Made by a program: the position numbers and the translations under genes | Virus record (IMG/VR): IMGVR_UViG_3300045936_000294 | Coordinates: 1 to 24,151 of that record | Reading direction: 5' to 3' (one strand) | DNA length: 24,151 nt | Origin: a virus | The notes under the pieces: generated by a model | Database searches by the model: none | Seen by the model: only the letters and a program-made list of their open reading frames with translations | What the model was told of the DNA's origin: nothing | Part shown: one piece after another, positions 3,852 through 23,717 of the stretch | Layout of the letters: the number at the start of each line of letters is the position of its first letter | How positions within the stretch are numbered: the stretch's first letter is position 1

Positions 3852-4334
3852 ATGTCACAAGTCGCCCAGCCTCTCCCGTCCGATTCCCCCTTCCCCTGGC
3901 GGGAGGATGTCCTCGTCCAGGTGATTGGTCTCGCCCGGCGGGAGCTCAAGGAACTGAGGGCTCGCTCCGTCCAGGGAACCGACTGGGAAAAGATCGGCTC
4001 GTCCATTTGCTGGTCCGACCAGGCGGTCGCCCATCTTGTGCCCGTCCCCGTACCTAACGCGGAAAATCCAGCTTTCCCCGCTGATCCCTCTCCCCTCACA
4101 ACGCTCCGCGTCGTCAAAGCCAGCTTCCCTAACACTCGTGTATTGCATGCCATCCATGAAAATAACGGCCACGCCGGTGCCATCCCGGTGCGGGTCAAGG
4201 ATGCGCGTCTCTTTCGTCCCGGAATGAAAATCCTGGCGCGGCCAGCCCTCGTGGGCTCCGCCTGGGAATTCATGGGAAACCCGGATCGGCCCGAGGTTGG
4301 TCCGCGGCCGCCCCGCTGGCCGGGTCGATGGTAA
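3852..4334 (+). CDS. Hypothetical protein, possibly the second half of a frameshifted gene
   Basis: 160 aa from ATG 3852, which has no Shine-Dalgarno motif. Upstream of the ATG the frame stays open and protein-like through the G8 tract of the preceding gene (GSNFPAAAGAATHFPEQL), so the two ORFs may be one gene in some genomes or by frameshift. The N-terminal 60 residues are helical (VLVQVIGLARRELKELRARS), followed by a proline-rich linker and a small beta-rich domain (AGAIPVRVKDARLFRPGMKI). The basic, proline-rich C-terminus overlaps the start region of the next gene. I do not recognise it. Its place between HTH proteins and the replication gene marks it as an early phage gene. Confidence 0.5.
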   Translation: MSQVAQPLPSDSPFPWREDVLVQVIGLARRELKELRARSVQGTDWEKIGSSICWSDQAVAHLVPVPVPNAENPAFPADPSPLTTLRVVKASFPNTRVLHAIHENNGHAGAIPVRVKDARLFRPGMKILARPALVGSAWEFMGNPDRPEVGPRPPRWPGRW

Positions 4335-9848: not shown

Positions 9849-11846
9849 ATGACTGCCCAGACGCTCAATGACGACTGGCTCATTGCCCAGGCCCGGAAGT
9901 TCCTCGTGGAACATGCCCCGCCGCCTCATCCGATCCTGCGGCTGCCGACCGAACGGGAGGTCGCGGCAGCGATGCGCCGGCCCCTCCAGAGCGGCCTCTA
10001 TGTTGTCGCCGCCCTCTTTGCCGAATACACCAAGCGGATTGAGGACGCAGACGAACGGACCGGCGAACCCCTCACTCATGGCTTCGTCCTCGATGCCTGG
10101 TACAAGCTGGTCGAGCAATTTCAATTTGCCAGGACGGTCTACTGCGGCGGGGGTAAACGGGCCTCCAAGACAGAGTGCGCAGCCTGGCTGTTTGTCAAAT
10201 CGTGCCTGGCCTATCCGGGTGGCCGCCGCTGGGTCCTGGGTGAGACCGAGAATTCCTCTCAAAACATCCAGCAACCCGCGATCTGGCGTTACCTGCCGCG
10301 AGCCTGGCGAGTCGAACTCAACGCCAAGGAGTCGCGCGACTTCAAGCTCAAGTACGCTGAGGGCCGCGGCTTCTCAGATAATCTCCTCGTGATGCCCACC
10401 GAACCGCCCACGATCGTGAAGTTCCTCAGCTTTGTTCAGGATCCAAAGCATTACCAGGGCTGGAAGCTTGGGGGTGAAGTTCACAAGCCAACGACGATCA
10501 GCTTTCCAGGCGGTCGCGAGCTTTCCCTTCCCAACATGGGTTGGTGGGCGGATGAGAATATGCCGCTCTTGTGGCTCGAGACGGCCGAAACTCGCTCCCA
10601 GGATTTACAATCCTGCGGCCTCTGGACCTATTCACCGCTGGAAGGGATCACGGCAACGATCAAGGAGATGCTCGGTGTCCCCAGGGTCCTCGAGGAGCGC
10701 GAGGCGGAGCTCCTCCCGAATCACCGCGTCCTCGTCCCTGGCTGCCGGCCCGGCCAGATGCCGAGCGTGGTCGAGTGCGGCCGGCACCGGACCCGCGCGG
10801 TCTTCTTCTTCCGCAAGGACAATCCCTTTGGCCGTTACGAGGCCCACGCGGCCGAGATCCGCTCGCGGCCCGAGACCGTGATCATGCGCGACTCCTACGG
10901 TTGGGCGACGGACATCCGTCACCGGGCATTTCCGAAATTCGGTGCGGTTCACATCGTAAAGCCAGAGCACTTGCCCAAGGACGGAACCAACTACCTCTTT
11001 ACCGATCCCGCCGGGGCTCGGCGCTGGGCCACGATCTGGGTCCGGGTGGATCCGCGCGGTTATCACTTCATTTACCGGGATTGGCCGCACAAGCGCCTCT
11101 TTGGGGATTGGGCTGTCCCGAGCGATTCAGAGTCTGAGCCCGACGGCCGCGCCGGACCCGCCCAGCAGAGCGATGGCCTCGGGGTCACCGGCTACAAGGA
11201 ATTGTTCCTCGATCGGGAGACAATCTCGATGACCACGGAGGGCTCTGGAGAGTGGGCTGAGAAGGATCCTTACCGTCGGCATTGGTGCGACCAGGTGATG
11301 CGAGGCTTTCGGAAGAAGCCAGGGGAGGACGGCCTTTGGGATCCTGCGGATGTGCGCGAGGTCCGGGCCAACCTGGCCGAACCGCTGCGCGAGGTGATCA
11401 TGGGCCGCTACATCGATCCACGCGCGGCCGGCACGCAACACGCCCAGGAGCAGGGCGCCAGGACTGTGATCGAGCTCTTTGCGGAGCGGGTCGAGGGAGC
11501 TAAGGGCACAGTCTCTGAGCCGATGACGATGGAGTCGGCCTATAGCGGCCGACAACTCGGCACGGGCGAGAATGCCCAGATCGGAACGGGCCTTAGCGAG
11601 GTCAACGAGCTGCTCGATTGGGATCCGCTGCACCCCGAAGGCCTCGTTCCGGGCGTGAATGAGCCGCGTCTATACGTTTCAGCGGAGTGCGAGCAGGTGA
11701 TCTGGGCGATGCAAACCTATACCGCGCGGGGCGGCGCCAAGGGCGGCTGCAAAGATTTCTGTGACTTGTTGCGCTATGTGTGCCTCGCGAACCTGCCCTA
11801 CGTGGGGGCGGAGGGCCTTCTCGGGACCGGAGGAGGGACTTATTAA
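9849..11846 (+). CDS. terL: Terminase large subunit
   Basis: 665 aa, ATG 9849 with AAAGG three bases upstream. The ATPase part carries a Walker A variant GGGKRASKT (100-108), in which the usual final Gly before Lys is Ser (S106-K107-T108), and a Walker B like WWADE (232-236). The nuclease part has D386 in YLFTDPAGARRW, a second Asp in GRYIDPRAA (533), and D639 in DFCDLLRY, the three-acid layout of RNase H-like terminase nucleases. It drives DNA into the head through the portal and cuts it at the end. An extra polar segment (about 424-450) precedes the second nuclease acid. No small subunit is obvious just upstream. The last codons contain AGGAGG, which would serve the next gene. Confidence 0.88.
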   Translation: MTAQTLNDDWLIAQARKFLVEHAPPPHPILRLPTEREVAAAMRRPLQSGLYVVAALFAEYTKRIEDADERTGEPLTHGFVLDAWYKLVEQFQFARTVYCGGGKRASKTECAAWLFVKSCLAYPGGRRWVLGETENSSQNIQQPAIWRYLPRAWRVELNAKESRDFKLKYAEGRGFSDNLLVMPTEPPTIVKFLSFVQDPKHYQGWKLGGEVHKPTTISFPGGRELSLPNMGWWADENMPLLWLETAETRSQDLQSCGLWTYSPLEGITATIKEMLGVPRVLEEREAELLPNHRVLVPGCRPGQMPSVVECGRHRTRAVFFFRKDNPFGRYEAHAAEIRSRPETVIMRDSYGWATDIRHRAFPKFGAVHIVKPEHLPKDGTNYLFTDPAGARRWATIWVRVDPRGYHFIYRDWPHKRLFGDWAVPSDSESEPDGRAGPAQQSDGLGVTGYKELFLDRETISMTTEGSGEWAEKDPYRRHWCDQVMRGFRKKPGEDGLWDPADVREVRANLAEPLREVIMGRYIDPRAAGTQHAQEQGARTVIELFAERVEGAKGTVSEPMTMESAYSGRQLGTGENAQIGTGLSEVNELLDWDPLHPEGLVPGVNEPRLYVSAECEQVIWAMQTYTARGGAKGGCKDFCDLLRYVCLANLPYVGAEGLLGTGGGTY

Positions 11847-15334: not shown

Positions 15335-15337
15335 ATC

Positions 15338-15442
15338 TTGGCTGGGCGTGGCCCGGCAGGGCTCGGCATGGCAGCGTCCGGCTAGGTCGGGCATGGCGCG
15401 GCGTGGCAATCCCATGGTCCCGCGCGTGCGCGGGACCACAGC
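15338..15442 (+). repeat. NNGGC array plus hairpin, copy 1
   Basis: From 15338 to 15407 the sequence is a degenerate five-base repeat NNGGC (TTGGC TGGGC GTGGC CCGGC ...) with only a few slips. It is followed by CAATCCCA and a perfect 10-bp stem TGGTCCCGCG / CGCGGGACCA (15415-15424 and 15429-15438) with a four-base loop, then CAGC. A TTTTT tract at 15451-15455 follows a few bases later, so this copy might also stop transcription. Confidence 0.85.
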
Positions 15443-15454
15443 TTTCTCGATTTT

Positions 15455-15596
15455 TCGGCGCGGCGAGGCATGGCTTGGCAAGGCCAGGTATGGGCCAGGT
15501 TTGGCATGGCGATGCGTGGCAAGGGTCGGGCGGGGAAAGGCGCGGCAATGCACGGCGCGGCAATTCCATGGTCCCGCGTAAATGCGGGACCACAGC
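15455..15596 (+). repeat. NNGGC array plus hairpin, copy 2
   Basis: The array (15455-15561) is less regular, with several 6-base steps, but keeps NNGGC as its unit (GCGGC GAGGC ATGGC TTGGC AAGGC). Then AATTCCA and a 9-bp stem TGGTCCCGC / GCGGGACCA (15569-15577 and 15584-15592) with loop GTAAAT, then CAGC. Together with copy 1 it fills the whole 301-base gap 15335-15635; no gene is seen there, and reading frames through it are by-products of the array. Confidence 0.85.
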
Positions 15597-15635
15597 TTTT
15601 GAACGCGGGAAACCACTCAAAACAAAAGGATAACA

Positions 15636-16232
15636 ATGGCACTCAGCACACTCCGAATGCGTTGGACGGGGGTCCGTCCGCTTCTCATGGCGAACATCCG
15701 GGCGGTGGACACGACGGATTCCAAGGTGAAGGAGATCAAGAGCCTTACGCAAAAGCGAACCAAGGACACGACGGACACGGAACGGGAACGGATCGCCCAA
15801 CTCGAGTGGGAAATCTCGACCTACTGGGACCCAAAGCTTGGGTTTTATATCCCCTCCCAGAACATCGAGCGGTGCATCCAGATGGGAGGGACCAAGGACC
15901 GCCTGGGCAAGAAACTGACCGCTGCGGTCTGGCTGACCGACCTGATGGTCCCCATCCAGAACCGGACCCGGCATCGAACTCTGGAGGCGTACTATGAAGA
16001 CCCTGCCTTTCGTTTCCGGACGGCGGTCAGGACGCCGCCCCGGACGGGCGGAAGGCAGATGAAGAGCCGGGCGATGATCCCGACCGGGTGGATGATCGAG
16101 TTTGAGCTCAATTATGACGACAAGGAGTTGAACAAGGAACAGATCGAGTCCTCCGTGGGGAATGCCGGGGTGATGGTAGGCCTCGGTGATTGGCGCCCCA
16201 AGTTTGGCCGGTTCACCTCGGAAACCATTTGA
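15636..16232 (+). CDS. Hypothetical virion-region protein
   Basis: 198 aa from ATG 15636 with AAGGA seven bases upstream. The N-terminal part is a basic strand-rich stretch followed by a charged helix with TTDTERERIAQLEWEIS. The middle holds WDPKLGFYIPSQNIERCI, and the end IPTGWMIEFELNYDD, then helix EQIESSVGNAG and VGLGDWRPKFGRF. The GLGDWRPKFGRF closing motif recurs in phage proteins in my recollection, but I cannot give a family name or function. Mixed alpha/beta, soluble, no Cys pair. It lies between two repeat modules, one on each side. Confidence 0.6.
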   Translation: MALSTLRMRWTGVRPLLMANIRAVDTTDSKVKEIKSLTQKRTKDTTDTERERIAQLEWEISTYWDPKLGFYIPSQNIERCIQMGGTKDRLGKKLTAAVWLTDLMVPIQNRTRHRTLEAYYEDPAFRFRTAVRTPPRTGGRQMKSRAMIPTGWMIEFELNYDDKELNKEQIESSVGNAGVMVGLGDWRPKFGRFTSETI

Positions 16233-16260
16233 AGATCTCCATGGCGCAGCAATGCACACC

Positions 16261-16340
16261 AAGGCCGAGCGTGGCAGGGCTCGGCACGGCTCAGGCTCGG
16301 CAAGGCAATTCCACGGTCCCGCATCGCGCGGGACCGCAGC
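16261..16340 (+). repeat. NNGGC array plus hairpin, copy 3
   Basis: A shorter array (about 16261-16306; GTGGC AGGGC TCGGC ACGGC ...) shares 14 identical bases GGCAGGGCTCGGCA with copy 1. The stem is CGGTCCCGC / GCGGGACCG (16314-16322 and 16328-16336) with loop ATCGC, then CAGC. Relative to copies 1 and 2 the outermost pair has changed from T-A to C-G on both arms. The next gene starts 23 bases downstream. Confidence 0.85.
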
Positions 16341-16362
16341 CTCAAATAAAGGATTCAGACCG

Positions 16363-16860
16363 ATGAATGAGACTCGCAAATTTCCGTTATGGAAGAACGT
16401 CGTCCTCCTGCTTGAGGAGCAGGGGGTCAACTGCGACACCGTGATCAAGACCGAGTGGCTCGAAGCGGAGCTGCAACTGAAGTACGGGACGCCGCAATTT
16501 GGCGGGTCGATCCACAAGATCCGACTCCACTTCGAGCACATGGGTCTTTACCTCACGCAATCGGAGCAGCGCGGGAAGCAATTCGTCTTCCTGCCCTACC
16601 GGGACAATTTCAAGAAGATCCAGTCCTTCGACCGCCAGGCGAAGGCAAAGTTGAAGCGCGGTCTCATCCTGGGGGCTTCGACTCCCGTTGATGGGATGAC
16701 CGAGGAGGAGCGGGTCCGCCATGAGCGATGGACCGAGGCAGCCGGGGTCCGTTCGGCCTTCCTGCACCGGTCCATTTCAACCCTCAAGCGCCTCTCTGAA
16801 TCCTTCAAGAAACCCCGCCCAAAGCTCGCCCCGACCCAGTTGCCGGAGATAAAAGGCTAA
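16363..16860 (+). CDS. Hypothetical protein with winged-helix-like N-terminus
   Basis: 165 aa. ATG 16363 is chosen because AAAGGA lies about ten bases upstream and because the longer frame (from 16186) would read through repeat module 3. The first 90 residues (WKNVVLLLEEQGVNCDTV, KTEWLEAELQLKYG, SIHKIRLHFEHMGLYLTQ, KQFVFLPYRDNFKKI) alternate helices and strands like a winged helix or small DNA-contact domain. The rest is helical and basic, ending in a proline-rich tail. A small-terminase or head-assembly role is possible, but nothing specific is seen. It is the last plus-strand gene before the inverted cargo block. Confidence 0.55.
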   Translation: MNETRKFPLWKNVVLLLEEQGVNCDTVIKTEWLEAELQLKYGTPQFGGSIHKIRLHFEHMGLYLTQSEQRGKQFVFLPYRDNFKKIQSFDRQAKAKLKRGLILGASTPVDGMTEEERVRHERWTEAAGVRSAFLHRSISTLKRLSESFKKPRPKLAPTQLPEIKG

Positions 16861-23009: not shown

Positions 23010-23360
23010 ATGGGCATCAATTCGTACACCATCGTCAACCGGATCGAGGCGGCGGCGGCCAAGACCCCGCGGGCACATCACATCGCCTTTGGCGCCGGGG
23101 GTGTGCCCATTGCGCTCTCCCAGACGGACCTCTGGGTAACCTATGTGGAGGTCTATGGGTATAAGACGGTCTCGGCAACGGGCGCCCCGGTGGCTAACAG
23201 TTCCATCGCCCATGTGGGGACCGCTGTGGCTCTTACGGATCCCGTGCCCGTAGGAGGCAAGATCGTCCTCGATCTTCCACTCGGCACGAAATTCAACCTG
23301 CGGGACCTCTATGGGCTCGCGGCCAATGGGGATGGACTTCTTATCCGCTACCTGGAATAG
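23010..23360 (+). CDS. 116-aa virion-region protein, paralogue 1
   Basis: 116 aa from ATG 23010. It starts MGINSYTIVNRIEAAAAKTP and ends PLGTKFNLRDLYGLAANGDGLLIRYLE in pieces PLGTKFNLRDLYG and GLLIRYLE. Beta-rich with VEVYGYKTVSATGAPVANSS. It is a clear paralogue of the next gene: same length, same MGINS start, shared YGYK-x-VS, PLGTK-x-NL and RYL. Likely a small structural (stopper, ring or decoration) protein. No SD seen (CTTAACTTTTTATG). Confidence 0.55.
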   Translation: MGINSYTIVNRIEAAAAKTPRAHHIAFGAGGVPIALSQTDLWVTYVEVYGYKTVSATGAPVANSSIAHVGTAVALTDPVPVGGKIVLDLPLGTKFNLRDLYGLAANGDGLLIRYLE

Positions 23361-23366
23361 GTTTTT

Positions 23367-23717
23367 ATGGGCATCAATTCCTTTTCCCCTGCAAACCAGC
23401 TCGCGGCGGCCACTGCCAAGACTTATCGGGAATTTGGCCTTGTCCCGGTGACCACGGGGGCCCAGACCGCGGTGAGCGCGACCGATGTCTTTGCGACCCA
23501 GGTCGAGTTCTACGGTTACAAGAGTGTCTCGTCCGGGACCGCCCCGGTCCCGAACACAGCCAATGTCTACTACGGGCTTCAGGTCGCCATGAGTGACGTC
23601 CTCGCGCCGGGGGCGAAGGTGACTTACCGGCCGCCCCTTGGAACGAAGATCAATCTAAAGAATTTCTATGTGACCGGAACGACGGGCGACTCGGTGTTTC
23701 TCCGCTACCTCCAATAG
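23367..23717 (+). CDS. 116-aa virion-region protein, paralogue 2
   Basis: 116 aa from ATG 23367, six bases after the paralogue stop. MGINSFSPANQLAAATAKTY, VEFYGYKSVSSGTAPVPNTA and PLGTKINLKNFYV align with the preceding protein without length change. About a third or more of positions look identical by eye, with the strongest conservation around YGYK and PLGTK. The start region GTTTTTATGGGCATCAATTC is nearly the same as in paralogue 1. Same predicted role. Confidence 0.55.
   Translation: MGINSFSPANQLAAATAKTYREFGLVPVTTGAQTAVSATDVFATQVEFYGYKSVSSGTAPVPNTANVYYGLQVAMSDVLAPGAKVTYRPPLGTKINLKNFYVTGTTGDSVFLRYLQ

Follow-up and report, generated by a model that had tools for sequence, protein, structure and literature searches.

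Evidence for a divergent VIPR locus with a lineage-specific guide RNA tail in an IMG/VR virus

A candidate VIPR locus

We analyzed a 24,151-nucleotide stretch of a viral genome (IMG/VR record IMGVR_UViG_3300045936_000294, positions 1 to 24,151), henceforth referred to as the window. With a probability of about 0.93, it carries a VIPR (Viral Interference Programmable Repeat) locus composed of three guide RNAs, the gene vipr and the gene vap (Table 1). The locus is a previously unlabelled, divergent VIPR member with a lineage-specific tail; the kind itself was already described in 2026. In the VIPR preprint (PMC13142463, April/June 2026), which covers 667 systems, a locus comprises an ancestral RAMP encoded by the phage, the accessory gene vap, and vrRNAs in which 9-16 GGY/NN units are followed by a structured tail. 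VIPR is presented there as RNA-guided DNA recognition with a non-contiguous code, a relative of CRISPR that is the older of the two. The VIPR features present at the window are a single-domain RAMP/Cas7-like phage protein, intergenic GGY/NN units beside vipr, hypervariable NN positions, a structured 3' tail and vap.

An earlier note on this DNA knew of no description of the combination of array and hairpin, but the preprint reports guide RNAs in which GGY/NN repeats precede a structured 3' tail (PMC13142463). Its suggestion of an RNA signal is now rated likely, the units matching VIPR guide RNAs (vrRNAs). Literature searches by repeat sequence gave no match, and the preprint was reached via a PDB molecule name. 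The linkage between gene and array and the Cas7 fold were obtained before the preprint was known.

Table 1. Coordinates of the features of the proposed VIPR locus in the window
Feature	Position	Strand	Description
vrRNA 1 guide part	15337..15407	+	14 NNGGY units; array HMM and unit list
vrRNA 1 tail	15407..15446	+	CAATCCCA, stem TGGTCCCGC/GCGGGACCA, CAGCTTT; covariance model 51.8 bits
vrRNA 2 guide part	15457..15561	+	23 units by HMM, about 22 by eye; two one-base insertions
vrRNA 2 tail	15561..15600	+	Hairpin as in vrRNA 1, loop GTAAAT; covariance model 51.3 bits
vipr gene	15636..16232	+	198 aa, phrog_4652; predicted Cas7/Csm3-fold RAMP protein
vrRNA 3 guide part	16240..16306	+	13 units; one one-base insertion, several imperfect triplets
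vrRNA 3 tail	16306..16345	+	Outer pair C-G, not T-A; covariance model 43.1 bits
vap gene	16363..16860	+	165 aa; predicted winged-helix-like N-terminal and helical C-terminal part

Arrays and hairpins in the window

An HMM of the five-base unit detected exactly three NNGGC arrays in the window, all on the plus strand, with no hits on the minus strand of the window or in five shuffled sequences of 24 kb. Three GGTCCCGC/GCGGGACC hairpins lie on the same strand (15416-15437, 15570-15591 and 16315-16335), and the hairpin match was obtained in 0 of 100 dinucleotide shuffles. The three array-hairpin units that the earlier note had picked out are thus real. The AAT(C/T)CCA linker, the CAGC end, the switch of the outer pair on both arms of the third copy and the placement of two copies in a single 301-base gap (15335-15635) are all as it described. 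Its degenerate NNGGC arrays are also present, although, as a correction, copies 2 and 3 are interrupted by one-base insertions and some of their triplets are imperfect. The genes beside the units, which it had taken for virion genes, are vipr and vap.

The dinucleotides of vrRNA 1 read TT TG GT CC AG TC AT AG CC TA CG AT GC GT. The three arrays contain 14, about 22 and 13 units, so that two of the three fall within the published range of 9-16. All three register shifts in the window are located in copies 2 and 3. Because array 2 exceeds the published length and arrays 2 and 3 are shifted in register, some of the guides may be decayed, and copies 2 and 3 may be partly worn.

We considered other identities for these sequences. 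A coding role of the arrays was ruled out because of the five-base period, in agreement with the earlier note, and no known RNA family in Rfam matched at gathering scores. A CRISPR array, looked for as a constant repeat with spacers of ~30 bases, was absent from the locus. The scanned window genes had no Cas family match and the protein family had no strong PADLOC match. GC-rich hairpins in intergenic gaps could also terminate transcription or mark recombination hot spots where modules meet, yet none of the three window hairpins was flagged in a terminator scan. This explanation, which does not account for the array, its strand or its linkage to a Cas7-like gene, is hardly credible.

Elsewhere in the window, two tandem open reading frames of 116 amino acids (23010-23357 and 23367-23714, 42% identical), after the major capsid protein gene, are probably a duplicated virion gene.

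The probable Vipr protein

The product of 15636-16232 belongs to a family annotated as function unknown. We predicted its structure with AlphaFold2 (pLDDT 95.7) and compared the model to the PDB (Foldseek, VIA-align). The best 50 entries were all Cas7-family CRISPR subunits, the best match being Csm3 (Z 11.6, rmsd 3.6, 158 residues). As modeled, the protein has the Cas7/Csm3 fold over its full length. Among PDB sequences it matched 36pp_D, named "SUSP1 Vipr protein", with an E-value of 2.5e-26 for the single sequence and 4.4e-54 with the family profile. By this sequence comparison the window protein is kin to SUSP1 Vipr.

Linkage between the arrays and the gene family

We surveyed IMG/VR from both sides of the association. 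On the gene side, NNGGC arrays were detected in 61 of the 63 loci found with the window protein versus 1 of 119 control loci; the exception (L018) is itself a relative. One of the two loci without a detected array (L385) has hairpins with strongly worn arrays when inspected by eye. On the array side, a search with runs of eight exact NNGGC units gave, among the matches listed, 120 array-only loci, of which 85 carry the gene versus 0 of 118 controls; none of these controls has an array either.

Array and gene are on the same strand in 263 of 266 cases. They lie within 1 kb of each other in 261 of the 266, and the median gap is 36 bases. Their orientation also follows the flanking genes, with 83 same/same versus 8 opposite/opposite among the IMG/VR matches listed. 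The NN letters vary widely in IMG/VR arrays and low-variety arrays are few (15 among the matches listed). Per-position entropies are 1.94 and 1.99 bits for N1 and N2 versus 0.71, 0.70 and 0.88 bits for G, G and Y, the low GGY values being partly due to how the arrays were detected. The modal array length of 12-13 units is within the published 9-16. Of the 128 arrays that a scan found in bacterial genomes, 113 were true tandem repeats of low variety, and arrays with varied NN therefore look mainly like a phage trait.

Members of the vap family are present in 51 of the 63 loci found with the protein and in 20 of the 120 found by the array (the latter among the matches listed), mostly directly 3' of vipr. 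The profile of the family aligns to that of wV8 gp94 with an hhalign probability of 96.9. In the structural model (pLDDT 92.6), long helices come after a helix-helix-helix-strand-strand order that resembles a winged helix. Matches in the PDB were weak and mostly to MarR-type and other winged-helix proteins. Vap is likely to bind DNA.

Gene and arrays also co-occur in cultured phages: Mycobacterium phages Quico and Mattes, Gordonia phages Trine, ODay and UmaThurman, Cyanophage Cy-LDV1 and Felixounavirus wV8. In wV8 the family gene is gp95 (33% identity), with NNGGT arrays on both sides that match the GGY rule. These arrays (NC_012749.1 58500-62500, minus strand, 700-1110 and 2120-2690 of locus L429) lie in a region partly annotated only as repeat_region DR_4. 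In the Cheoctovirus phages Quico (L123 1400-1647) and Mattes (L124 1436-1685), one array of ~50 units is directly upstream of the vipr-like gene, and the end of the Quico array, TTGGCTGG-GCAA-CCAGCCA, could form a hairpin. Cy-LDV1 has arrays directly after the vipr-like g34 (L432 3102-3284) and after g33 (3882-4042). The tails of Trine (L428 11510-11760) and of its relatives L231, L217, L143 and L128 resemble a tRNA acceptor plus T arm (GGTTCGACTCC) and are perhaps a processing site. tRNA genes were rejected for the T-arm-like tails of L143, L217, L128 and L231: ARAGORN called just two, each of them doubtful and located within an array locus. Two gene annotations touch these elements. Trine gene 40 has its annotated start inside the noncoding L428 stretch (11510-11760), and the UmaThurman gene 40 call is probably spurious because it coincides with a vrRNA array (L430 3132-3443).

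Covariation in the tails

A scan of IMG/VR for the stem found one contig with the array-hairpin unit of the window (L018, the same contig as L365). It has ten copies in the gap between the same two genes as in the window (L365 2463-3792), several of the guides being near-duplicated in tandem. Its stems include GGTCCCGC, GGTCCCAC, GGTCCCTC, GCTCCYGC and TGTCCCGC, with the partner arm altered to match each, and the 10 guides comprise about six different stems.

We assessed the pairing over 13 distinct tails. All 117 of 117 cells were paired, and 4 of 9 pairs had changes on both sides. Neither the paired percentage nor the covariation score was reached in any of 500 shuffles, and 39-56% of cells paired when the partner arm was slid. 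Two-sided changes alone are weaker evidence, since 14 of 500 shuffles reached four such pairs. Together, the complete pairing, the two-sided changes and the shuffle and slide controls support selected pairing, as the earlier note had proposed from the outer-pair switch. A covariance model built from the 13 tails found more tails beginning at array ends in L366, L369, L370 and L372. Further copies, for which the note had proposed a search, do exist elsewhere. Across window and relatives, the tail consensus consists of C-AAYNCCA or CAAACACA, then a stem of 6-10 bp, then AGCTTT; the stem sequence differs among copies while the pairing stays.

The same note had likened the units to REP-like or miniature mobile elements, a reading that would fit several similar copies and the tandem near-duplicates of L018. 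However, the copies are restricted to the neighborhood and strand of one gene family and are not dispersed independently. In nearly every relative they flank the Cas7-like gene on the gene's strand, the 118 controls have neither gene nor array, and the tails begin at array ends. We therefore set the mobile-element reading aside as having next to no likelihood.

In the array units of the closest relative (L018/L365), the first G position is G in 57% of units (A or T in 40%), the second is G in 89%, and C is found in 97%. A tentative proposal, for which the odds are somewhat below even, is that the guides of this VIPR lineage follow a format of their own, with a stem that drifts under strict pairing among the guides of one locus and, in the closest relative, a relaxed NN(G/A/T)GC unit in place of NNGGY. 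If so, Vipr would read the shape of the stem and not its sequence, and guides of one locus could bear partly different tails.

Target searches and proposed mechanism

According to the preprint, the NN letters of VIPR recognize double-stranded DNA with a one-base skip from each dinucleotide to the next, and the phages that the complex represses are competitors (PMC13142463). We searched IMG/VR for targets under this one-base-skip rule with exact 8-unit seeds, four from the three window guides. The two vrRNA 1 seeds gave 16 and 11 matches, the vrRNA 2 seed 55 and the vrRNA 3 seed 6; extensions were at chance and there was no convincing target. Self-targets within the window did not rise above shuffled guides, and one wV8 guide, searched with an exact 8-unit seed, gave no target in IMG/VR. 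Among the collected loci, a skip of one base gave slightly more long matches than shuffled arrays, a weak excess that is not decisive.

The lack of a target for the window guides in IMG/VR or in the window under this seed search, together with arrays that share the gene's strand and nearly always lie within 1 kb of it, would suit a Cas7-like protein that coats arrays in its own mRNA. Such a protein would act in cis (autoregulation, mRNA protection or processing) and target no DNA. Against this, GGY is conserved and NN is near random, the pattern that a programmable part should have, and SUSP1 vrRNAs, both native and reprogrammed, target DNA in the experiments that the preprint reports (PMC13142463). 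We consider cis control quite unlikely.

We favor RNA-guided recognition of DNA by a VIPR complex. Each GGY would be held by one Cas7-like Vipr subunit, leaving two free NN bases to spell the target, and the 3' tail, made up of the CAATYCCA linker, the covarying hairpin and the CAGCTTT end, would cap the guide. By polymerizing along the array, Vipr subunits would build a complex that binds double-stranded DNA, its NN letters pairing with target dinucleotides that are each followed by one skipped base. Binding would in turn repress genes of competing phages or satellites, aided by the winged-helix-like Vap. In other VIPR members, vrRNA expression and binding, one-base-skip DNA recognition and repression are all reported as demonstrated (PMC13142463); for the phage studied here, we infer transcription, RNP assembly, targets and effect. 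Silencing of rival phages appears to be the use that phages make of VIPR.

The locus adds a divergent VIPR lineage with a conserved yet different tail, plus a ten-guide relative, and its natural compensatory changes are evidence on which features the tail has to preserve. The survey ties VIPR to phages in culture, namely those of Mycobacterium, Gordonia and cyanobacteria and the Felix O1-type, in which it is testable.

Comparison with known systems

We compared the window to three known systems. TRAP, which forms a ring, recognizes (G/U)AG triplets set apart by 2-base spacers, and these spacers carry no information. Like the window, TRAP has a triplet plus two free bases along RNA, a geometry that had suggested a TRAP-like ring protein; the idea was dropped because the linked protein proved Cas7-like. 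The fold of TRAP is unrelated and, unlike the window's NN, its spacers are uninformative.

The type III CRISPR backbone (Csm3, Cmr4, Cas7-11) shares with the window the predicted full-length Cas7 fold (Z 11.6) and a layout of guide plus structured handle. It differs in its period, which is 6 bases (PMC13142463) versus 5 bases in the window, where neither cas neighbors nor CRISPR repeats were noted.

The SUSP1-clade VIPR (type II in PMC13142463; Ounavirinae SUSP1 and wV8) differs from the window in several details. The window triplet is GGC versus GGT in wV8, and the window vap is related to wV8 gp94 at the profile level only. Array 2 of the window has about 22 units versus 9-16 in the preprint (PMC13142463). 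The window tail (CAATYCCA, covarying stem of 8-10 bp, CAGCTTT) is distinct from the SUSP1 tail, for which the same source reports a pseudoknot (PMC13142463). In its overall organization this clade is like the window: both have a lone RAMP (Cas7-like) with vap downstream, vrRNAs upstream and downstream of vipr, 5-base GGY/NN units and a structured 3' tail.
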